From positions 1 to 64,000 of the forward strand of contig NZ_KB899978.1 of assembly GCF_000378485.1 (NCBI RefSeq): DNA of 64,000 bases, read 5' to 3'. This stretch comes from Flavobacterium rivuli WB 3.3-2 = DSM 21788 (GTDB lineage Bacteria > Bacteroidota > Bacteroidia > Flavobacteriales > Flavobacteriaceae). Both the position numbers and the translations under genes were made by a program. Under the pieces are notes generated by a model. That model was given only the letters and a program-made list of their open reading frames with translations. It did no database searches and had not been told where the DNA came from. Positions 16,834 through 59,826 of this stretch are shown piece by piece (position 1 is the stretch's first letter; each line of letters starts with the position of its first letter).

Positions 16834-17151
16834 CTATTCCCACTTCTCTTTACTCCCACCATCCTTATCCATTATCTCCCTAATTTTGCGGTCTTCCCAG
16901 TTGGATCCGAAAAACACATCGGTGCCAAAAACGCCAAAAGCATGAATGGCAAGGCCAAGCCCCCAAAAGATTGCCGTAGAAAAAGTTTCGAAGCTTAAAA
17001 ATTCTTCTCCCGGTTCAAGGTCGCGCCAGTGCATAGCTATCAGCAAAATATTAATTATAATATATACCGCAAGGTGCTTATAAAACCCCTTAATAGACTT
17101 TACTTTTTTAAGTGCCCTCTCTACTCTTCTTTGATCTTCTAAATTTTCCAT
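16834..17151 (-). CDS. 2TM domain-containing protein
   Basis: 105 residues: a charged N-terminal helix (RVERALKKVKSIKGFYKHLA), two predicted transmembrane helices (about 26-42 and 60-80) and the family tail WEDRKIREIMDKDG. This is the 2TM domain found alone or at the C-terminus of LytS-like histidine kinases in Flavobacteria; its role is unknown. Last gene of the operon that begins at 19880, 13 bp after the preceding 2TM gene. Confidence 0.88.
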   Translation of the reverse strand: MENLEDQRRVERALKKVKSIKGFYKHLAVYIIINILLIAMHWRDLEPGEEFLSFETFSTAIFWGLGLAIHAFGVFGTDVFFGSNWEDRKIREIMDKDGGSKEKWE

Positions 17152-17164
17152 TTCTTATAATTTG

Positions 17165-17461
17165 TTAGCCGTTGTGGCCGTTGTTTCTGTCTTTCTCCAT
17201 CAGTTCCTTAAGTTTACGATCTTCCCAGTCTTTGCCTACAAAAGGTATGTACCCAAAAGCGCCTATGCCATGAAAAACCAACGCCGTACCCCAACCGGAA
17301 AGCGAGAACCAAAACCAGTGAAACTCCGGCATTGTAGTTAGGTTTACATAAACCAGGATGGGTATTACAATACAGTAACACATAAGGTTATAATAAAAAC
17401 CCCTTATTTCGCGCACTTTACTTTTTGCCTTTTTATAGGCTATGCTATCTATATTTTCCAT
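17165..17461 (-). CDS. 2TM domain-containing protein
   Basis: 98 residues with the same plan as its neighbours: KVREIRGFYYNLMCY at the start of the first helix, a second helix around WFSLSGWGTALVFHGIGAFG, and the tail WEDRKLKELMEKD. The WGxxxxFHGxxxF pattern is shared by all four 2TM copies in this operon. Third stand-alone copy counting from the kinase is the next gene at 17151. Confidence 0.88.
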   Translation of the reverse strand: MENIDSIAYKKAKSKVREIRGFYYNLMCYCIVIPILVYVNLTTMPEFHWFWFSLSGWGTALVFHGIGAFGYIPFVGKDWEDRKLKELMEKDRNNGHNG

Positions 17462-17516
17462 AATGTTTTCATTATTAATTATTGGTATTGAAAACTGCGA
17501 CTGTGACTAAAAACTA

Positions 17517-17816
17517 TTACTGCCACTTACTATCTTTTTCTTTTTCTATAAGCTCTTCTATTTTGCGCTCTTCCCAGTCTTTACCTAAAAAAGGCGTCAT
17601 GTTAAAAACGCTTAAACCATGAAAGGCAATAGGTATACCCCAGCCCAATACGGGCCACAAAAACCATAAGTAAAAAGGATAGGTAATTAAATTAATTGTC
17701 ATAAGTACACCCATTACTACAACATAAGCCATAAGGTGCATGTAAAAAATCTTCATTTCCTTAACCTGCTTTTTTACTTTATTAAGTACTAAAGCATCGT
17801 TATTTTTTGTTTCCAT
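17517..17816 (-). CDS. 2TM domain-containing protein
   Basis: 99 residues from the ATG at 17816 (METKNNDALVLNKVKKQ). An upstream ATG at 17885 would overlap the kinase stop and adds 23 residues without 2TM character. Closest of the three to the C-terminal domain of the kinase: both contain GWGI, FHG/IHG, SVFN and PFLG followed by WEERK and end SKWQ/SKWR, which suggests recent duplication of the kinase tail. 59 bp after the kinase stop. Confidence 0.86.
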   Translation of the reverse strand: METKNNDALVLNKVKKQVKEMKIFYMHLMAYVVVMGVLMTINLITYPFYLWFLWPVLGWGIPIAFHGLSVFNMTPFLGKDWEERKIEELIEKEKDSKWQ

Positions 17817-17875
17817 TTTATTGATTTTGATTTGATTGATGATTGAACACTGATTACCGCGATTGTTTATTAAAT

Positions 17876-19219
17876 TTACCTCCACTTGCTGTTTCTTTCT
17901 TTTTCCAGCAGTTCTTTTACTTTACGCTCTTCCCACCCCGATCCTAAAAACGGCATGTAATTAAAAACGCTCATGCCATGTATTGCCACCCCTATACCCC
18001 ACCCCAATGCCGGATATAAAAACCAAAGATGTTCTGCGCTTGTGGCAAGGTTTACTATAGTAAGGCCGGTAATAATTACCACATAAGAAAAGAGGTTGCC
18101 ATAAAACCCTTTTATCTCTTCTACTTTTTTCTGCGCTTTATAATAGCTTGTATCTTTTTCGTTATATACTGGTTCCATGATATTTACCTGTTTAGTTAAT
18201 ACGGGGAGTTTTACTGTAAAATGTTTTTCGGTTTGTTCTATCTGCACCTGCCGGGCAGTAATAATGGCATAACGGCTTATAATGTTTTGCAGCCCCACAC
18301 CCTTGCGATCCTGCAATACTTCCTTTTTCTGGAAATCGTTTTGCACTACAAGGTAACCACCTTCTTCATAAATTCTAATGTGTAGTGGCCTTTCCTGGCT
18401 TACTACATTATGCTTAACTGTGTTTTCTAACAACAGCTGTAAAGACAGTGGCACTACCCTTGCATCCGGGCTCGAAATAGTGAGGGGCAACTCATAAAAA
18501 ACACTATTTTCAAACCTCATTTTAAGCAGGTTCATATAGGTTTTGGCAAAAGCCAGCTCCTCATCTATACTCACTAATTCTTTATCTTTCTGCTCTAATA
18601 CGTAACGGTATACTTTAGACAGTGATGTAGTAAATTTTTGTGCACTGTCGGGGTTTTCTTCAATAAGCGAGCTAAGCACATTAAGGCTGTTAAACAAAAA
18701 GTGAGGGTCTATCTGGTTTTTTAATGTCTCAAACTTTGCCGAAGCCGTACCTGCAATTATCTTTTGCTGCTTTACCCTGTTCTCCTGAAACTTTTTATAA
18801 AAATGGAACAGGTGCAGTGAGAATGTAATTACTATGGTAATGATCATAGCAATATAGTAATTGCTAAGACGCTCTTCCAGTACAAAATACACAAACGTTT
18901 TACCCTCTATAACAACATCTTCAAACACCCGTAAAAAAAACACAATAATTATAGATACTATAAAAGAACTTACAAAGCCCACTAACAGCCTTTTAACCGA
19001 TAGCACTGCATTGTTAAACACCCTGTCCATTACCATAAACACAACGGCATTACCCAGGTGCAACAATATGGTGTATAACATTATAAACAGGAACTGGCGC
19101 GGTATATCGTCATTCCAACCAAGTGGCCTGCCCCCTGCCACCGCGATAAGGTACAGCACTATAAATATAATGACACCAAGGCCCAGCGCACGAAGAAATT
19201 CTTTTGATACTATTTTCAT
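17876..19219 (-). CDS. LytS/YehU-type sensor histidine kinase with C-terminal 2TM domain
   Basis: 447 residues. Four predicted transmembrane helices (about 11-28, 43-64, 77-97, 121-141), then the His_kinase core with phospho-acceptor His173 in DPHFLFNSLN, an N-box LLLENTVKHN (about 262-271) and a short ATPase region with GVGLQNIISRY. Residues about 350-447 are a fused 2TM domain. Kinases of this family nearly always act through a LytTR response regulator; none is encoded beside it here. It lies in an operon after a TPR-like periplasmic protein and before three free 2TM proteins. The signal sensed is unknown. Confidence 0.9.
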   Translation of the reverse strand: MKIVSKEFLRALGLGVIIFIVLYLIAVAGGRPLGWNDDIPRQFLFIMLYTILLHLGNAVVFMVMDRVFNNAVLSVKRLLVGFVSSFIVSIIIVFFLRVFEDVVIEGKTFVYFVLEERLSNYYIAMIITIVITFSLHLFHFYKKFQENRVKQQKIIAGTASAKFETLKNQIDPHFLFNSLNVLSSLIEENPDSAQKFTTSLSKVYRYVLEQKDKELVSIDEELAFAKTYMNLLKMRFENSVFYELPLTISSPDARVVPLSLQLLLENTVKHNVVSQERPLHIRIYEEGGYLVVQNDFQKKEVLQDRKGVGLQNIISRYAIITARQVQIEQTEKHFTVKLPVLTKQVNIMEPVYNEKDTSYYKAQKKVEEIKGFYGNLFSYVVIITGLTIVNLATSAEHLWFLYPALGWGIGVAIHGMSVFNYMPFLGSGWEERKVKELLEKERNSKWR

Positions 19220-19256
19220 TACAGGTATTATTTATTGGCTGTAGCCAATTTTATCT

Positions 19257-19880
19257 TTATTTACCGCACTCTGCAAGAGCGGCTTCTGCCCTTTCTTTAC
19301 CCCATTTTGGGCTAAACGGCGTTTCCGGTTTAAAGTTAGCAAAAAGACTAATAGAGCGTTCAATCTCGGCACACATTGGTTTGGTGTCATTCCCAAAAAA
19401 CTTAGCCGACCCTATTGCAAATTGCGCCTTATTAAACACTACCCTTGGGTTATTTGGCGCAATAACAATTGCTTTGGCATACAGTTCGTTAGTAGGTGCC
19501 GAAAGTTTCATTCCGTTAGTCATCGGGTCTGCCACGATCCAGGCTGTGTTTATCATAGCCTGCATTACAAGCAGTTCGGCATTATCAGGCGAAAGCGCAT
19601 CTGCAGTATCCTGTGCAGATTGTGCTTTGGCAAGCAGCGCGCTGATAGTTTGTTTATCTTTAGTCTTAAAAGCCTCGGTAGTGTTTACAAGGGCAACATA
19701 ATATAATGGCAGCCAGTTGGTTTTTTCGGCTGCGGCTATCCTTTCAAAAAGTGCCGATGCCTCGGTAGCTTTATCCTCTTCCCACAGGCCGAATGCTTGT
19801 TTCATACCTGTTTCATATTGCGATTGTGCATTAACTACATTACACATAAAAAAGATAAAAAGGGTAATTGCTCGTATCAT
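19257..19880 (-). CDS. Periplasmic TPR-like protein
   Basis: 207 residues from the ATG at 19880, which begins a signal peptide (IRAITLFIFFMCNVVNAQ). The rest is Ala-rich helical with TPR-like pairs (ATEASALFERIAAAEKTNWL, ELYAKAIVIAPNNPRVVFNK). No enzyme motif. It is the first gene of the operon, 37 bp upstream of the LytS-type kinase, and might report on the envelope to that kinase; this is inference from position only. Confidence 0.75.
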   Translation of the reverse strand: MIRAITLFIFFMCNVVNAQSQYETGMKQAFGLWEEDKATEASALFERIAAAEKTNWLPLYYVALVNTTEAFKTKDKQTISALLAKAQSAQDTADALSPDNAELLVMQAMINTAWIVADPMTNGMKLSAPTNELYAKAIVIAPNNPRVVFNKAQFAIGSAKFFGNDTKPMCAEIERSISLFANFKPETPFSPKWGKERAEAALAECGK

Positions 19881-20000
19881 AACTTTAAATTTTAATTGGT
19901 TGTTGTTTTTTGATAGAACAAAGGTGCACACTATTTGCACTTAATAAAAAAGCTTCTTACCCAGTTGTAGATTTTAAGGGATGAGTTGTAAATAATTAAG

Positions 20001-20031: not shown

Positions 20032-20295
20032 ATGGAAATGCTGTTGCTAAAAGGAAAATCTAAAGAAGACATGAGGCTTATAGCAGATCTTGCCATAAAA
20101 ATTGGCATGACTGTAGAGTATGTACCCGATGAAGTTAGTTACACTACCATAAATGAACCGGAAGCTCTTGCCGAATGGAATAATTTGTCTGCAAATCAAC
20201 AACAGGGATTATTAGATGCTATTGAAGATGTAAAGTTAAACGGTGGCAAGAAACATGACGATGTTATGAAAGCAATGCGGAAGAAGTATGAGTAA
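20032..20295 (+). CDS. Putative type II antitoxin
   Basis: 87 residues, acidic and helical, located just upstream of and overlapping by 8 bp a RelE/ParE-type toxin gene. This is the usual order and coupling of type II antitoxins, which bind and mask the toxin and repress the shared promoter. The N-terminal half (GKSKEDMRLIADLAIKIGM) may be the DNA-binding or dimerising part; the C-terminal half (LSANQQQGLLDAIEDVK) likely contacts the toxin. I do not recognise a named antitoxin family with certainty. Confidence 0.75.
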   Translation: MEMLLLKGKSKEDMRLIADLAIKIGMTVEYVPDEVSYTTINEPEALAEWNNLSANQQQGLLDAIEDVKLNGGKKHDDVMKAMRKKYE

Positions 20296-20584
20296 GGAAA
20301 TTATCTGGTCTTCGGCAGCTGAAAATGACTTAATAAAAATTTTAGACTACCTTAACCTTAATTGGAATACTAAGGTAACCAATTCTTTTCTTGATATTTT
20401 AGGCAAAAATATTTCTCAGGTATCTTTTACACCTGACCTATTTCCCGTTTTTAATAAATCGCTTAACATTAGGAAATGTGTTATTACAAAACACAACACT
20501 TTGTATTATGAAAATCACTATTCAGAAATAGTTATTCTTAGAATATACGATGTACGTCAAAACCCTGATAAATTAAAATTCTAA
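20288..20584 (+). CDS. RelE/ParE-family toxin
   Basis: 98 residues. The N-terminus KEIIWSSAAENDLIKILDYL and the later strands KCVITKHNTLYYEN and IVILRIYDVRQNPDKL follow the RelE/ParE fold (helical hairpin, then a beta sheet, ending in the RxDVRxNP motif). RelE members cut mRNA on the ribosome and ParE members poison gyrase; the sequence alone does not decide which. It overlaps the antitoxin gene by 8 bp, so translation is coupled. Confidence 0.85.
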   Translation: MSKEIIWSSAAENDLIKILDYLNLNWNTKVTNSFLDILGKNISQVSFTPDLFPVFNKSLNIRKCVITKHNTLYYENHYSEIVILRIYDVRQNPDKLKF

Positions 20585-24915: not shown

Positions 24916-25371
24916 AGTTTGTACCATATTCATTTAGAATAATGATGAAAGTTTTACGGTTTTTTAGCTATACATAACTGTAATAATATGTGTTAAGGTA
25001 ATAATCTGCTAAATCGACATTAATAAATTATTACTCATTGTATTTTGTTATAATTATAACCAAATATTGACTTTTTGTTGTAAAATAAATTCAATAAAAA
25101 TGGCTGAAAAAGCTATTAATATATGTTTTTGATAAGGAAACCTTAAAAAACACAAGATTTACATATTTTTAACCTTAAAAAATACATTGAAGTGTTTTTT
25201 AATTCTTAAGTTTTTGTAAATATTCCTCAAAAAAACAATAATTTACTCAGTTAGATTGAATTAATAATTACAAAACACCCTGATTTATAATTATTCACTA
25301 AATAATAATAACAAAGATTTAACATAAACATTAATTTGTATTTTAGGAAAACAAATATTTATGTACTACAA
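24916..25371. other. AT-rich promoter-bearing intergenic region
   Basis: About 455 bp with no gene. The last ~40 bp before the ATG at 25372 (TAATTTGTATTTTAGG, then ACAAATATTTATGTA) are closely matched upstream of the next gene (30959-30999), showing the leader was duplicated with the gene. Confidence 0.55.
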
Positions 25372-28300
25372 ATGAAAAAAAACTACAATTCTTTACCGCG
25401 AGGTGCCGGCAACTTTTTGCCCCCACCAGAAAGTAACAGCAAAGCATTTGCGTGTTGGCTTTCTAATCATTTTAAAGGAAAAAATCTGCTGGTAGCAGCA
25501 TTCCTTTTCATGCTAAGTACCGTGCAGATTTTTGCACAAACCGGCGAAACATGTGCAACGGCAATAGACCTTGGCACACTTACCAGCCCCTTTAGCGGAA
25601 CTACAGTAGGTGCTGCTAATGACTACACACCGTCTTGCCAAACTTTCAGTTCTGCGGGCGATCTTGTTTACTCTGTATCTGTTCCTAACGGGTATACACT
25701 AAACATTGTACAAACTGTAAACAATTATGATTCGGTTCACTCCGTTTATTATGGAAGCTGCGATGCGCAAACTTTAATAGTTTGTCGTGATGACCCGGAT
25801 ACCCCATCTGACTTTAACGGACAATTAGCTCCTGTTGAATGGGAGAATGCTACAGGAAGTGACCAAACCGTATATTGGTACCAGGATGGCTATAACAACT
25901 ACACAGGTACTTTTACATTAACATGGAGCGTTACACCTCCACCTACTTGTAATATACCTACATCTGTTCTTGCAACAGTACTGTCTGCCACTACGGCAGA
26001 TTTAAGCTGGGGCGCTCCGGTAACAGGTACGGCTACTAACTATGAGTATGCCCTTACAAACTCTGCAACACCACCTGCAAGTGGTACTGTTACAACAGCA
26101 ACAACTGTTTATGGTGCTGCTATAACTGTAAACCAAAACACCTATTTGCATGTACGCACTAATTGTGGTACTACAGATGGTTACAGCGAGTGGGTAACAT
26201 TCTCTTTTTACTCTGGTATTTGTATTCCTGCATCTCCTTATGTTAACGGTACAGGTATTACTAATGTAGCCATAGGCAGCATAAATAATACTACCGGGCT
26301 GGAAGCTACTAACTACGGCAATTTTTCGAGCCAGATAGTAAATATAGGACAAGGTGTTACACAACAATTTAGTGTAACCTTTAATACTTTTGATTCTTAT
26401 AATGTAAAATTATGGGTAGACTGGAATGACAACCTAACCTTTGATGATGGTGAGGAAGTATTTAGTGGAGCGACCCCAACGGGCAATCCATCTACAATAA
26501 CAGGCTCTTTTACAGTTCCTGTTACAGCAGCATTAGGAAACCATAGGCTTAGGATAGGCGGAATGGTTTCATGGAGCGGTCAGCCGTTACCATGTGCTAC
26601 CACTGCTTACTATGGCGTTTATGAAGATTATACCGTAAATGTAACTACACCTCCTTCATGTTTTACACCGGTAGCTCCTACAGCTACTAACGTAAGTGCA
26701 GGAGTTATAAACATTGCATGGACAGCACCAACCCTTGGCACAACACCGGCAGGATATGAGTATGTAGTAGATACTACAGTTGCATCTCCGGCAAGCGGTA
26801 CTGCCGTTACTGGTACAAGCGTTAACAACGTTGCCGTTACTGTAAACGTAACTGGCTACCTGCATGTAAGGACAAGCTGCGGCAGTGGCGACTTTAGTGA
26901 GTGGGTAACAATACCATTTTACAATGGCGTTTGTATACCGGCTCCAACATCTGTAGATGGTCAGGGTATTACCAATGTAACTATTGGCAGTATAAACAAC
27001 ACTACCGGTACAGAAACCAATAACTATGGTAACTTTACCTCTCAAATTGTAAACGTAGGCCAGGGTGTTACCCAGCCATTCAGCATTACATTTGGCACAG
27101 GTGCAGATTATGTAACAAGAATTTGGGTTGACTGGAATGACGACCTTGATTTTGATGATGAAGGCGAAGAAATTTTCTTTGGCACATCTCCTGCAGGTAA
27201 CCCTGCAACACTGTCAGGTACATTTACCGTTCCTGTAACAGCAGCTTTAGGCAACCACCGTTTAAGGATTGGTGGTACAGACTACGGACCTACAACTCCA
27301 TGCTACAATGGTTCATGGGGTAGTTATGAAGATTACACAATAAATGTAACTCTTCCTCCTACATGCTTTACACCTGCTACCCCTCTTGGTGTGGCAACAG
27401 CATCTGGCGTTGCTAACCTTAGCTGGGTTGCCCCAACATTAGGCGGAGCTCCTGTAGGTTATGAGTATGCTGTAGATACTAACTTTGCATCTCCTGCAAG
27501 TGGTACTGCTATTACAGGTACATCTGTTACAGGTTACACAGGCATTGTAGACAATACATATTACTACCTTCATGTACGTACAAATTGTGGTACAGGCGAT
27601 TATAGCGAATGGGTTACATCTGCACGCTTCAGGTTCCTTCAGGGAGATACTTGTGCTACAGCAATAAGCCTTGATGCTTTAACAAGCCCGTTATCTTCTA
27701 CAACAGTTGGTGCCGGTAATGACTATACTCCATCATGTGGCTTTACTAATGCACCAGATATTTATTACTCTATAACAGTACCTAACGGTTATGTATTAGT
27801 TGCAGGCTTAACAGCAAGCAGCTATGATTCTGAACATGTATTATTTTATGGTGACTGTACTACACAAACTGAAATATTATGTACAGACGCCGAAACAGGA
27901 GATACTACATGGGAAAACACAACAGGCAGCACTCAAACAGTATATTGGGTACAGGATGGCTGGTCTTCTAACACAGGTACTTACACATTAGCGTGGACGT
28001 TAACACCGCCACCACCGTGTAATATACCAAGAAACGTTACCGGTACTATGGTTACACTTACAACAGCTAACATTAGCTGGACAGTTCCTGTAACAGGTAC
28101 TCCTGTAAGCTATGAATATGCTGTAACACAATCTGAAACTCCACCAGCTGCAGGCACAGTAACAACAACTATGTCTTTTACAGATGTAGCTACTGTAGCA
28201 AATGCATACAACTATGTACACGTACGTACAAATTGTGGTACTGATGGATACAGCGAGTGGGTTACTTACCAGTTTTACTCTGGCCACTGTATACCTAACA

Positions 28301-30618
28301 GCTTATATACAGAATACTATAACATTGTAGCATTTACTACTACAACAGGTTTTAGTAACATATCTAATACTGAAGAGCAATTAGTAGCTTACACAAACAA
28401 CTTTGACACTATGGTGGTTAGCCAGGAGCCGGGAGGAAGTTTTGGTTACACAGTTACTATAGACTCTTACACTGCTGTTGATATTTGGATTGACTGGAAC
28501 AATGACCTTGATTTTGATGATGAAGGCGAATTTATAAGGACGCATGAAAACCAGAATTTTGTTAATGCCGACTTTACAAATACAATTTCTATACCTGGTG
28601 TTATAGCACAGGGCAATTACAGGATGAGGCTACGTTCCCGTTCTACATGGAACACAGGCAGCCCTTGTGGACAATATGATTACGGTACAGCTCAGGATTA
28701 TGCCATTAACATTGGCGATCCTCCTACATGTTATGTTCCCGTAACTGTAACCGGCGTAGGTGTTTCATCTGGTGTTGCTAACTTAAGCTGGGCATCTCAG
28801 GGTCTTGGAAGCGATCCTGTAGGATATGAGTATTTTGTTACAACATCTACTACAAGCCCGGAATCTGGTACTGCAATAACAGGAACATCTGTTCCGGGAT
28901 ATACAGGAATTATAGACAACACATGGTATTACCTTCATGTAAGGACAAACTGTGGCGACGGAGATTACAGCCAGTGGGCTATTTCGCCAAGGTTTAGATA
29001 CCTTGCAGGAGATACATGTGCAAGCGCTATAGATCTTGCTACACAAACAAGCCCTTACAGCTACAGCACAGTAGGAGCCGGTAACGACTTTACAAGCTCT
29101 TGTAATACATGGGGTACTGCACCGGACCTATATTACTCTATGGTTGTTCCTAACGGATATACTTTTGTAATAGGTTTATCAACAGGTTATGATGCTGTAC
29201 ATACTGTATTTGTAGGTAGCTGCGACGATAGCGACCTGATTGTATGTACTGACAATGACTCTGATACAACAACTTGGGAAAATACAACAGGAAGTACTCA
29301 AACTGTTTATTGGGTACAGGATGGTTATGGCACAAGCACGGGTACATTTACCTTAACATGGACGCTAACACCTCCTCCTACATGCGACAGGCCAAGAGCA
29401 CTTGATGTAAACCTTACATCGCTTACTACTACAGATGCAAGCTGGGATGTACCTAATACAGGAACACCTGTAGGTTATGAGTATGCTGTAACAACATCTG
29501 CTACGCCTCCTGCAAGTGGTACTTATACTACTGCAACATCGGCCACAGGTATAACAGTAACTCCTAACGTAAACAGCTTCCTGCATGTACGCACAGTTTG
29601 TAGTGAAGCAGATGGCAACAGTATATGGGTATCTATACCGTTCTTTAGCGGTTACTGTGTACCAAGCAATACAACATCTACTGCTTATTACATTACAGGT
29701 GTAACTTCTACAGGCGGAGAAACTAACTTTGCAAGTACAAGTACAGGCTTTAGTGCATTTACTGATAATACGGCTACGCACTCAGTTTCTACATACCCTG
29801 GTGGTTCATTCTCGCTACAGGCTACAACGCCTACAGCTGCTGACAACTTTATATACAGCGTATGGATAGACTGGAATAATAACTTTGACTTTACCGATGA
29901 GGGAGAGCGAGTTATAAACACAGGTTATTTAATTACACCGGCAACACTTGGCACTATAACTGTACCAATGACAGTTGTTCCGGGTACATACAGGATGAGG
30001 ATTAGAAATGCTCACTTTGGTGCTCCGGTACCTGCATGTGGAGAACAGGGATCTGGCGAGGCAGAAGATTACACATTAGAGGTAGTACCGGCTCCAAGCT
30101 GTTTCCCTCCTTATGGCGCAACAATAACAACTACAGATCCTGGTTATGCTAATCTTAGCTGGTCTCCGCCATTAATAGGTGGTACTCCTTCAGGATATGA
30201 GTATGTATTTAGCACATCTTCTACTCCTCCTACAGGTAATGGTACACCAAGCGCATCTTTCTTTGTTGGAGATGTAGAGTACAACCCTTTACAATCTGTA
30301 TACCTGTTTGTTCGCAGCAGCTGCGGCGGTGGCGACTACAGTACATGGGTTACTGCACAAATTCTTGGTACTGAATCGAAAGACTTCCTTGCTAACAGCA
30401 TAGTTGTTTATAAAGAAGGCAGTGCAATTAACATTACATCTGGTAATACATTAATGAAAGGTGTTACAATTTATGACACCCGCGGCAGGAAGCTTTATAG
30501 CCAGGCCGACATTAACAATACAGAAGTTGCACTTACAGGCCTGCAAATACAACAGCAGGTAGTAATTGTAGAAGTTGATACTCCAAGAGGTAAAGTAAGT
30601 AAACGAATAGTTTTCTAA
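25372..30618 (+). CDS. Giant GEVED/FnIII surface protein, T9SS type C sorting signal
   Basis: 1748 residues from the ATG at 25372. The signal peptide is long (about 56 residues, ending TVQIFAQ), with an extended polar n-region. The mature protein alternates three beta-sandwich units: PPC-like domains starting GDTCA (about 57-193, 757-881, 1210-1335), FnIII-like domains ending in a HVRT-C-G motif (seven copies) and GEVED domains (about 285-430, 522-664, 972-1117, 1427-1574) with an Asp-rich DWNDDLDFDDEGE loop. The last ~80 residues are a type C T9SS signal (GVTIYDTRGRKLYSQ, ending KVSKRIVF). Probable long surface adhesin. Paralogous to the next gene. Confidence 0.92.
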   Translation: MKKNYNSLPRGAGNFLPPPESNSKAFACWLSNHFKGKNLLVAAFLFMLSTVQIFAQTGETCATAIDLGTLTSPFSGTTVGAANDYTPSCQTFSSAGDLVYSVSVPNGYTLNIVQTVNNYDSVHSVYYGSCDAQTLIVCRDDPDTPSDFNGQLAPVEWENATGSDQTVYWYQDGYNNYTGTFTLTWSVTPPPTCNIPTSVLATVLSATTADLSWGAPVTGTATNYEYALTNSATPPASGTVTTATTVYGAAITVNQNTYLHVRTNCGTTDGYSEWVTFSFYSGICIPASPYVNGTGITNVAIGSINNTTGLEATNYGNFSSQIVNIGQGVTQQFSVTFNTFDSYNVKLWVDWNDNLTFDDGEEVFSGATPTGNPSTITGSFTVPVTAALGNHRLRIGGMVSWSGQPLPCATTAYYGVYEDYTVNVTTPPSCFTPVAPTATNVSAGVINIAWTAPTLGTTPAGYEYVVDTTVASPASGTAVTGTSVNNVAVTVNVTGYLHVRTSCGSGDFSEWVTIPFYNGVCIPAPTSVDGQGITNVTIGSINNTTGTETNNYGNFTSQIVNVGQGVTQPFSITFGTGADYVTRIWVDWNDDLDFDDEGEEIFFGTSPAGNPATLSGTFTVPVTAALGNHRLRIGGTDYGPTTPCYNGSWGSYEDYTINVTLPPTCFTPATPLGVATASGVANLSWVAPTLGGAPVGYEYAVDTNFASPASGTAITGTSVTGYTGIVDNTYYYLHVRTNCGTGDYSEWVTSARFRFLQGDTCATAISLDALTSPLSSTTVGAGNDYTPSCGFTNAPDIYYSITVPNGYVLVAGLTASSYDSEHVLFYGDCTTQTEILCTDAETGDTTWENTTGSTQTVYWVQDGWSSNTGTYTLAWTLTPPPPCNIPRNVTGTMVTLTTANISWTVPVTGTPVSYEYAVTQSETPPAAGTVTTTMSFTDVATVANAYNYVHVRTNCGTDGYSEWVTYQFYSGHCIPNSLYTEYYNIVAFTTTTGFSNISNTEEQLVAYTNNFDTMVVSQEPGGSFGYTVTIDSYTAVDIWIDWNNDLDFDDEGEFIRTHENQNFVNADFTNTISIPGVIAQGNYRMRLRSRSTWNTGSPCGQYDYGTAQDYAINIGDPPTCYVPVTVTGVGVSSGVANLSWASQGLGSDPVGYEYFVTTSTTSPESGTAITGTSVPGYTGIIDNTWYYLHVRTNCGDGDYSQWAISPRFRYLAGDTCASAIDLATQTSPYSYSTVGAGNDFTSSCNTWGTAPDLYYSMVVPNGYTFVIGLSTGYDAVHTVFVGSCDDSDLIVCTDNDSDTTTWENTTGSTQTVYWVQDGYGTSTGTFTLTWTLTPPPTCDRPRALDVNLTSLTTTDASWDVPNTGTPVGYEYAVTTSATPPASGTYTTATSATGITVTPNVNSFLHVRTVCSEADGNSIWVSIPFFSGYCVPSNTTSTAYYITGVTSTGGETNFASTSTGFSAFTDNTATHSVSTYPGGSFSLQATTPTAADNFIYSVWIDWNNNFDFTDEGERVINTGYLITPATLGTITVPMTVVPGTYRMRIRNAHFGAPVPACGEQGSGEAEDYTLEVVPAPSCFPPYGATITTTDPGYANLSWSPPLIGGTPSGYEYVFSTSSTPPTGNGTPSASFFVGDVEYNPLQSVYLFVRSSCGGGDYSTWVTAQILGTESKDFLANSIVVYKEGSAINITSGNTLMKGVTIYDTRGRKLYSQADINNTEVALTGLQIQQQVVIVEVDTPRGKVSKRIVF

Positions 30619-30675: not shown

Positions 30676-30999
30676 ATATAAATACGTGTAATAATCTATT
30701 TATAGAGATCAATTATAAAGAAAACAAACATTAATACCTCAAAAAACTATTTTTTGACAATAATCAGCATAAATCTTAGATTTTTATAACTGAAAATAGT
30801 AAATATTCATCATGACATTAACAATTGTTACAGGCATTAAAATAAATATTTAGCACAAAACACACTATTCAATACACTCGTTTTGCGTATTTATTTAACA
30901 AATTCTGTTTTTATTAATTATTCTTTAATTAACCATTTACATAAACTTAACATTATATAATAATTGTATTTTTAAAGCACACAAATATTATGTATTAAA
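30676..30999. other. AT-rich intergenic region with duplicated leader
   Basis: About 320 bp without a gene. The segment before the ATG (TAATTGTATTTTTAAAG, then ACAAATATTATGTA) copies the leader of the preceding adhesin gene. Confidence 0.5.
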
Positions 31000-37278: not shown

Positions 37279-37351
37279 ATTAACACAAATTTATGACATT
37301 GTTAATAGTTTTATAACATTTATCCTCAAAATTAACTATTTAGAAATGCAG

Positions 37352-59520: not shown

Positions 59521-59826
59521 ATGAAGCTAAAAGAACTTAAAGTTTGGCTGGACAAACTGACCGCTGAAGAACTTGAAAAAGAACTTTTGTACAACTCTAT
59601 GGATTATGGCATTTCTGGCCATGTAAGTGAAATAAACCGTACAGATGACAACCTTTACTATGTAGGAGATGAGCCTGTATTATTACATACCAGCGAAGAC
59701 CTGCGTAAACGCGGTTTTACCGAAAAACAAATTGCTGAACTTGATGTTGAAATTCCGCAAGGATGCTACTATATAGAGCTTAGCAACGAATACAGTATAC
59801 TGGAAAGGTTTTTACACGAAAGATAA
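59521..59826 (+). CDS. Hypothetical protein
   Basis: 101 residues, acidic, soluble, no signal peptide. N-terminal helix KLKELKVWLDKLTAEELEKE, central strands (NLYYVGDEPVLLHTS) and a C-terminal helical tail (SNEYSILERFLHER). I do not recognise a family. It precedes the PfkB-type kinase gene by 98 bp on the same strand. Confidence 0.6.
   Translation: MKLKELKVWLDKLTAEELEKELLYNSMDYGISGHVSEINRTDDNLYYVGDEPVLLHTSEDLRKRGFTEKQIAELDVEIPQGCYYIELSNEYSILERFLHER

Follow-up and report, generated by a model that had tools for sequence, protein, structure and literature searches.

A sensor kinase operon with 2TM-domain proteins and a displaced LytTR regulator in Flavobacterium rivuli: a probable LytS/LytTR-type system split across the genome

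The described systems closest to the locus studied here are the LytS/LytTR-type two-component systems and the LytTR Regulatory Systems (LRS). LytTR operators consist of two repeats of 9–11 nt with spacers of 11–13 nt, as given in excerpts of one study (PMC4847170). Excerpts of another (PMC6193735) describe LRS as a LytTR protein with a membrane inhibitor, with repeats just upstream of promoters and mostly a 12-bp spacer, and place the LRS-like operators of Bacteroides 11 bp upstream of promoters ending in TATCTTTG. In an evolution study of F. johnsoniae (excerpts of PMC10197871), 5/5 coevolved lines carried mutations in a LytTR/kinase pair whose genes are neighbors by locus tag and which may or may not be the present system. 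Here we analyzed the first 64,000 nt of contig NZ_KB899978.1 of Flavobacterium rivuli WB 3.3-2 = DSM 21788 (the window; the draft genome, G000, has 4.49 Mb in 22 contigs), in which a histidine kinase that ends in a 2TM domain (PF13239) is encoded next to three free 2TM proteins and no LytTR regulator. To our knowledge, PF13239 is a widespread membrane domain without known function, and no paper giving it a function was found in the literature searched. The present system was likewise not described in the titles and abstract openings of that literature, and the excerpts of PMC11237479 and PMC10057207 held nothing on it. We suggest, with a probability of roughly 0.77, that the locus is the sensor half of a broken-up LytS/LytTR-type system, whose kinase would signal to a LytTR regulator encoded on another contig (C18) that acts in trans on the sensor operon and on a receptor gene.

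The initial annotation had named a kinase with a 2TM tail, three free 2TM genes and no LytTR gene in the operon, and coordinates and Pfam bear this out; a TPR-like gene has to be added as the first gene. All five genes lie on the minus strand, and the features of the locus are as follows:

16834–17151, minus strand: last free 2TM protein, 105 aa (PF13239, 1.5e-25), in a starred clade of 13 last copies
17165–17461, minus strand: middle free 2TM protein, 98 aa (PF13239, 5.5e-26)
17517–17816, minus strand: first free 2TM protein, 99 aa from ATG (PF13239, 4.9e-28), 53% identical to the kinase tail
17876–19219, minus strand: histidine kinase with 4 predicted transmembrane helices, PF06580 and a C-terminal 2TM hairpin (Pfam, alignment, AlphaFold2)
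19257–19880, minus strand: TPR-like protein, 207 aa, first gene of the operon (upstream homologues in relatives)
19919–19922, minus strand: TTTG of a −7 box of Bacteroidota type; distance to the operator start 67 nt
19958–19989, minus strand: predicted LytTR-type operator, two 9-bp repeats with a 21-bp period, one of two strong sites in the genome

The first free 2TM gene is extended by the open reading frame (ORF) tool to 17517–17885 (122 aa) through an upstream GTG. The TPR-like protein has an apparent signal peptide, by eye, and gave only a sub-threshold match to Pfam TPR; of 129 kinase loci, including that of the window, 118 have a homologue on the kinase strand, upstream of the kinase gene.

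The kinase and regulator genes are normally paired, with the LytTR gene normally last in the operon. Nine of the ten PF06580 kinases of this genome adjoin a LytTR gene, the window's kinase being the sole exception. In relatives, the LytTR gene lies downstream on the same strand in 77 of 80 loci (the best 80 of 589, hence biased to close relatives), the exceptions being Flavobacterium sp. Sd200 (L107), a metagenome-assembled genome (MAG; L115) and a locus at which the contig ends (L153). It is present in 47 of 48 loci of a second set, which overlaps with the first, and is missing there only from the locus of genome G016 (L099). Among 142 same-genus genomes listing both genes, a count that omits 7 of the 150 listed kinase rows, the two are linked in 139 (137 on one strand and 368–2849 nt apart, two more linked though interrupted by contig ends) and split in three, namely F. 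rivuli, Sd200 and G016; apparent splits in G176 and G210 both turned out to be contig breaks. Within the genus, 159 of 199 genomes carry the kinase and all 159 also carry the LytTR gene, at cut-offs (kinase E ≤ 1e-60, LytTR E ≤ 1e-75) picked after viewing the tables, which were read by eye. Five of the 40 kinase-less genomes have the LytTR gene: four are assemblies of about 230 or more contigs, and in one the gene lies 568 bases from a contig end. This co-occurrence is support rather than proof, because genes sharing an operon co-occur anyway. One kinase-less relative has a partial LytTR match of 55% identity with two stop codons (G019:C12:82941-83462), as if the system were decaying there.

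The initial annotation had supposed that a LytTR partner is encoded elsewhere and had asked for a search for orphan regulators, which was carried out. The genome has 14 LytTR domains and five unpaired LytTR genes, and a single one of these five falls in the clade of operon-linked regulators: a gene of 251 aa on contig C18 (G000:C18:5261-6016; L200:5261-6016), whose product is composed of REC (PF00072) and LytTR (PF04397) domains and whose putative phospho-acceptor Asp53 aligns with that of paired regulators. Its product is 89% identical to the operon LytTR of F. subsaxonicum and 90% to that of Sd200. In a tree of 57 proteins (the best-80 loci, of which those after L118 were thinned to every third, with 9 of the 48 of the second set), the C18 and Sd200 proteins pair (support 98, starred) beside the operon-linked LytTR of F. 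subsaxonicum (85, not starred), nested inside the operon clade, with the other 13 LytTR proteins of the genome outside it. The annotation had also considered that the LytTR gene might be part of the operon in relatives and simply lost here; the first half is what was found, and on sequence evidence the regulator is displaced, not lost.

The surroundings of the C18 gene point to which part moved. Beside it, on the other strand, are PRiA4_ORF3-like and NA37 genes, and after it are two related genes, the first with a sub-threshold DoxX match. Among relatives, 49 of 128 loci have a PRiA4_ORF3-like gene on the opposite strand, upstream of the kinase, and in five loci, two of them from one genome, LytTR is followed by a DoxX-like gene. 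In Sd200, too, the LytTR gene has a PRiA4_ORF3-like neighbor on the other strand and a DoxX-like gene after it, and Sd200 shares neighbors with F. rivuli at both the kinase and the LytTR places. These flanking genes indicate that the LytTR gene stayed in place and that the TPR-kinase-2TM block moved, in an ancestor common with Sd200. A comparison with an empty site gave no guidance, since among six relatives searched, close orthologues of the new neighbors of the block were found in Sd200 only. The L115 MAG and G016 have different neighbors, and their splits thus look independent. Both halves are under purifying selection: dN/dS between F. rivuli and Sd200 is 0.035 for LytTR and 0.097 for the kinase, with dS near saturation (1.85 for LytTR).

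A predicted operator suggests that the separated parts still work together. Upstream of the TPR gene, we recognized a 32-bp consensus, ACARYTCATCC-N10-ACARYTSRGTA, with two 9-bp half-sites and a 12-bp spacer, which fits the LytTR rule on repeat length and spacer in the excerpts mentioned above (PMC4847170). The site was first spotted by eye in the sequences and afterwards tested statistically; a direct-repeat search with identical 5-mers did not show it. As a regular expression, it matches the upstream region of the operon at 66 of 118 loci (shuffled regions: 0.23 on average, 1 at most), with the signal nearly confined to the 21-bp period, and a position weight matrix (PWM) detects it in 91 of the 118, above the best of 2360 shuffled regions, with 25 of the 91 outside the training set. 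In all 11 loci without a TPR gene, the best score upstream of the kinase (7.8 to 40.8) also exceeds the shuffle maximum, the stretch scanned there being longer than the shuffles. Exactly 67 nt from the site start, a TTTG is present at 23/23 sites before the operon or the receptor gene and, over the operon loci, in 83 of 91. From this offset and the promoter spacing in Bacteroides, we reckon that about 10 nt would separate the repeats from the −33 element expected after them, which resembles the placement of activator sites. A scan for Sigma-70-type promoters gave no excess over shuffles. The predicted operator moved with the sensor block and has 0 mismatches before it here and in Sd200.

Two well-matching sites were found in the F. 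rivuli genome, one before the sensor operon (C13:19959-19989) and one (C1:471107-471137) before a gene for a TonB-dependent receptor, an outer-membrane importer (L106:895-3084; PF13715, PF07715, PF00593); a third match (C11:130742) has 3 mismatches and no related gene. Allowing up to 2 mismatches, the short pattern gave 32 matches against 27 for the control, which makes 2-mismatch matches meaningless. Over 14 genomes, the reversed form of the longer pattern gave 1 match and the pattern itself 28: 12 directly before a TPR gene, 11 before a receptor gene and five elsewhere, and the receptor sites had played no part in motif building. Among relatives, 108 of 128 loci have the receptor gene on the strand of the kinase, 713–5818 nt upstream of it; F. 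subsaxonicum carries both sites on one contig, about 129 kb from each other. A sequence search gave no solved-structure match for the receptor. Near the receptor gene that carries the second operator is a short kinase/LytTR pair with weak profile scores (L106:4912-6355, on contig C1).

The kinase itself was matched only by PF06580 (residues 161–239, 7e-26) and PF13239 (residues 361–439, 5e-27) at E ≤ 0.01, and no LytS 5TM sensor domain was found; the label "LytS-type" of the initial annotation thus holds for the catalytic part and not for the sensor. An alignment of 45 kinases shows no variation at the phospho-acceptor His173, at Asn266 or at Trp446, the second-last residue. The solved structure nearest to the kinase domain is the GanS kinase domain (6swj). 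An AlphaFold2 model (mean pLDDT 74) has four long N-terminal helices, the kinase part and a C-terminal hairpin, with a pTM (0.38) too low for reading the packing of the 2TM tail. A recognized 2TM tail is present on the kinase in 127 of 129 loci.

All four 2TM copies of the window score 89.5–97.5 bits with PF13239, against a curated cut-off of 24.8, and cover the profile almost end to end. Identity to the kinase tail is 53% for the first, 47% for the middle and 41% for the last copy, the last being the neighbor of LytTR in intact operons. The initial annotation had read the free proteins as duplicated tails, pointing to an ending (SKWQ/SKWR) that the copy next to the kinase shares with it. The first copy is indeed the nearest to the tail, but the ending is no special mark of it: 26 of 30 kinase tails have Trp as the second-last residue, and so do 23 of 26 last and 15 of 45 middle 2TM proteins (31 loci selected, one of which dropped out). 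In a tree of 102 hairpins (31 selected loci, hairpins below 60 aa dropped, 93 columns, limited support and many unresolved forks), the kinase tails, the last copies and the first and middle copies of this strain cluster mainly by position across species; the middle copy groups with its counterparts in Sd200 and F. subsaxonicum (support 87, not starred). On this tree, a recent duplication of the kinase tail in this strain is rejected, and the free 2TM proteins appear to be mostly old, position-specific paralogues. Some middle copies of the lineage of L128, L131 and L186 fall among kinase tails and may be later duplicates.

A mechanical count over 129 loci gave no free copy in four, one in nine, two in 60, three in 36, four in 19 and seven in one. 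These numbers are approximate: three of the four zero-copy loci have an unmatched ORF of 123–134 aa between kinase and LytTR, possibly a divergent 2TM copy, and some longer ORFs (about 200 aa) may encode two hairpins each. A near-constant tail with variable free copies suits accessory subunits, and the free 2TM proteins are therefore probably kinase accessories. In another family of the same taxonomic order (L061, L068, L072 and L074), a gap of 0.7–1 kb, enough for an additional gene, separates the first from the later free 2TM genes. A fifth, divergent 2TM gene of F. rivuli (G000:C2:434403-434642; L013, L201:9377) lies apart from the kinase cluster and directly precedes a gene that looks by eye like folA (dihydrofolate reductase).

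The broken-up system most likely arose and works as follows. The ancestral order, as in most relatives seen, was the TonB-dependent receptor gene followed by TPR, kinase, free 2TM genes and LytTR, with an operator each in front of the receptor gene and the TPR gene. The TPR-kinase-2TM block left in an ancestor of the strain and Sd200, and LytTR remained at the old site; the receptor gene is also elsewhere in this genome, and both targets retained their operators. The kinase, presumably anchored in the membrane by its four N-terminal helices and its C-terminal hairpin, would phosphorylate the C18 regulator at Asp53, which would then bind the operators and activate, in trans, both the sensor operon and the receptor gene. 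Association of the free 2TM proteins with the kinase hairpin may tune the assembly or activity of the kinase. The operon layout, the displacement, the orthology of the regulator and the site with its position are read directly from the sequences; phosphotransfer, binding, activation and the part played by the 2TM proteins are inferred.

Several points weigh against this interpretation. The loci are mutually related and the sets overlap, so the counts are not independent, and 66 of the 118 regions scored with the PWM had served to train it. No site above the null was found within 300 nt in 27 of the 118 regions. For Sd200, the operon site alone was found, the receptor gene not having been sought there; the L115 MAG has no match to the strict pattern, though its upstream region passes a looser regular expression; and the single match in G016 has 3 mismatches and precedes an unrelated gene (about 1 kb ahead of its kinase is a weaker candidate, with a score of 10.1). 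The direction of regulation is read from site placement alone. Finally, no operator was found upstream of the displaced LytTR gene in F. rivuli, Sd200, G102 or G016; the regulator therefore seems to be out of the proposed autoregulatory loop, with the sensor operon still in it.

A bolder possibility, which we offer only tentatively, is that PF13239 is a kinase-assembly module: the kinase tail and a varying number of free hairpins (0 to 7) would build a hetero-oligomeric membrane sensor with a response set by its composition, and shared operators would hold the regulon together even with its genes dispersed over three chromosomal places. It has also been considered that the free 2TM proteins inhibit LytTR itself in the membrane, with the kinase secondary, as the membrane inhibitor and promoter-proximal repeats of LRS might suggest. 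However, the C18 regulator has a receiver domain with its Asp, in three inferred splits no 2TM gene adjoins the displaced LytTR and all those seen remained with the kinase, and the tail is near-constant (127/129) but the number of free copies ranges from 0 to 7, so that we consider such inhibition unlikely. The staying of the 2TM genes with the kinase is only suggestive, given the few events and a gap before LytTR that is often the longest.

Uncoupling of the pair after the split, with the kinase using another regulator or the C18 regulator another kinase, would agree with the four other unpaired LytTR genes and the missing operator upstream of the displaced one. It is nonetheless improbable, since those four proteins fall outside the operon clade, the operator before the moved block is intact here and in Sd200, both halves are under purifying selection and the two genes co-occur in all 159 kinase genomes. 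An assembly artefact, conceivable in a draft of 22 contigs, is very improbable, as both new neighborhoods recur in Sd200 and the nearer contig end is 16.8 kb from the kinase block and 5.3 kb from the LytTR gene.

The initial annotation had further speculated that the regulator acts at adhesin genes of the window, preceded by LytTR-like repeats. This link was not borne out. The window has a single operator, that before the TPR gene (score 41.9 with the PWM, the next best being −7.1), and neither the PWM nor a generic LytTR consensus, run over the whole window, gave a site before the adhesins. No exact generic repeat pair was found in the window; two pairs with one mismatch lie at 59560 and 26715 (minus strand). 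Two further matches of the looser regular expression, at 26129 (minus) and 28144 (plus), are both inside ORF 25336–30618, not upstream of a gene. By eye, the adhesin upstream regions are merely AT-rich; a short CCTCAAAA-like element, also seen by eye, is common to the AT-rich stretches 25220–25240, 30735–30750 and 37320–37335 before three large adhesin-like ORFs. These elements are possibly the repeats that had been meant, and they do not match the operator. At window positions 20032–20584, right beside the operon promoter and divergent from it, are a ParE-type toxin gene (PF05016) and, before it, a small gene, perhaps for an antitoxin; the toxin gene was not seen at the corresponding place in Sd200 (L107).

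The locus gives PF13239 a concrete setting, as a kinase tail and accessories with a named regulator, a defined predicted operator and two predicted targets, and the natural split provides a two-component system that is apart from its regulator yet apparently still working in trans. Like the LRS HdrRM and BrsRM, it combines a LytTR regulator with membrane proteins and has direct repeats a short distance upstream of the promoter of the operon (excerpts of PMC6193735). Unlike them, it has a kinase and a receiver domain, which rule out an LRS with a membrane inhibitor and no kinase, and its membrane proteins are PF13239 hairpins. With LytS/LytTR-type systems, such as E. coli YpdA/YpdB, it shares the PF06580 kinase and REC-LytTR regulator, two 9-bp repeats with a 12-bp spacer within the described range (excerpts of PMC4847170) and a transport protein among the predicted targets. 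It differs from them in having a kinase without the LytS 5TM sensor that ends in a 2TM hairpin, an operon that includes free 2TM and TPR-like proteins, a TonB-dependent receptor as predicted target and genes that are dispersed in this genome. By the features tested, the predicted system thus belongs with the LytS/LytTR-type two-component systems, as a variant form.

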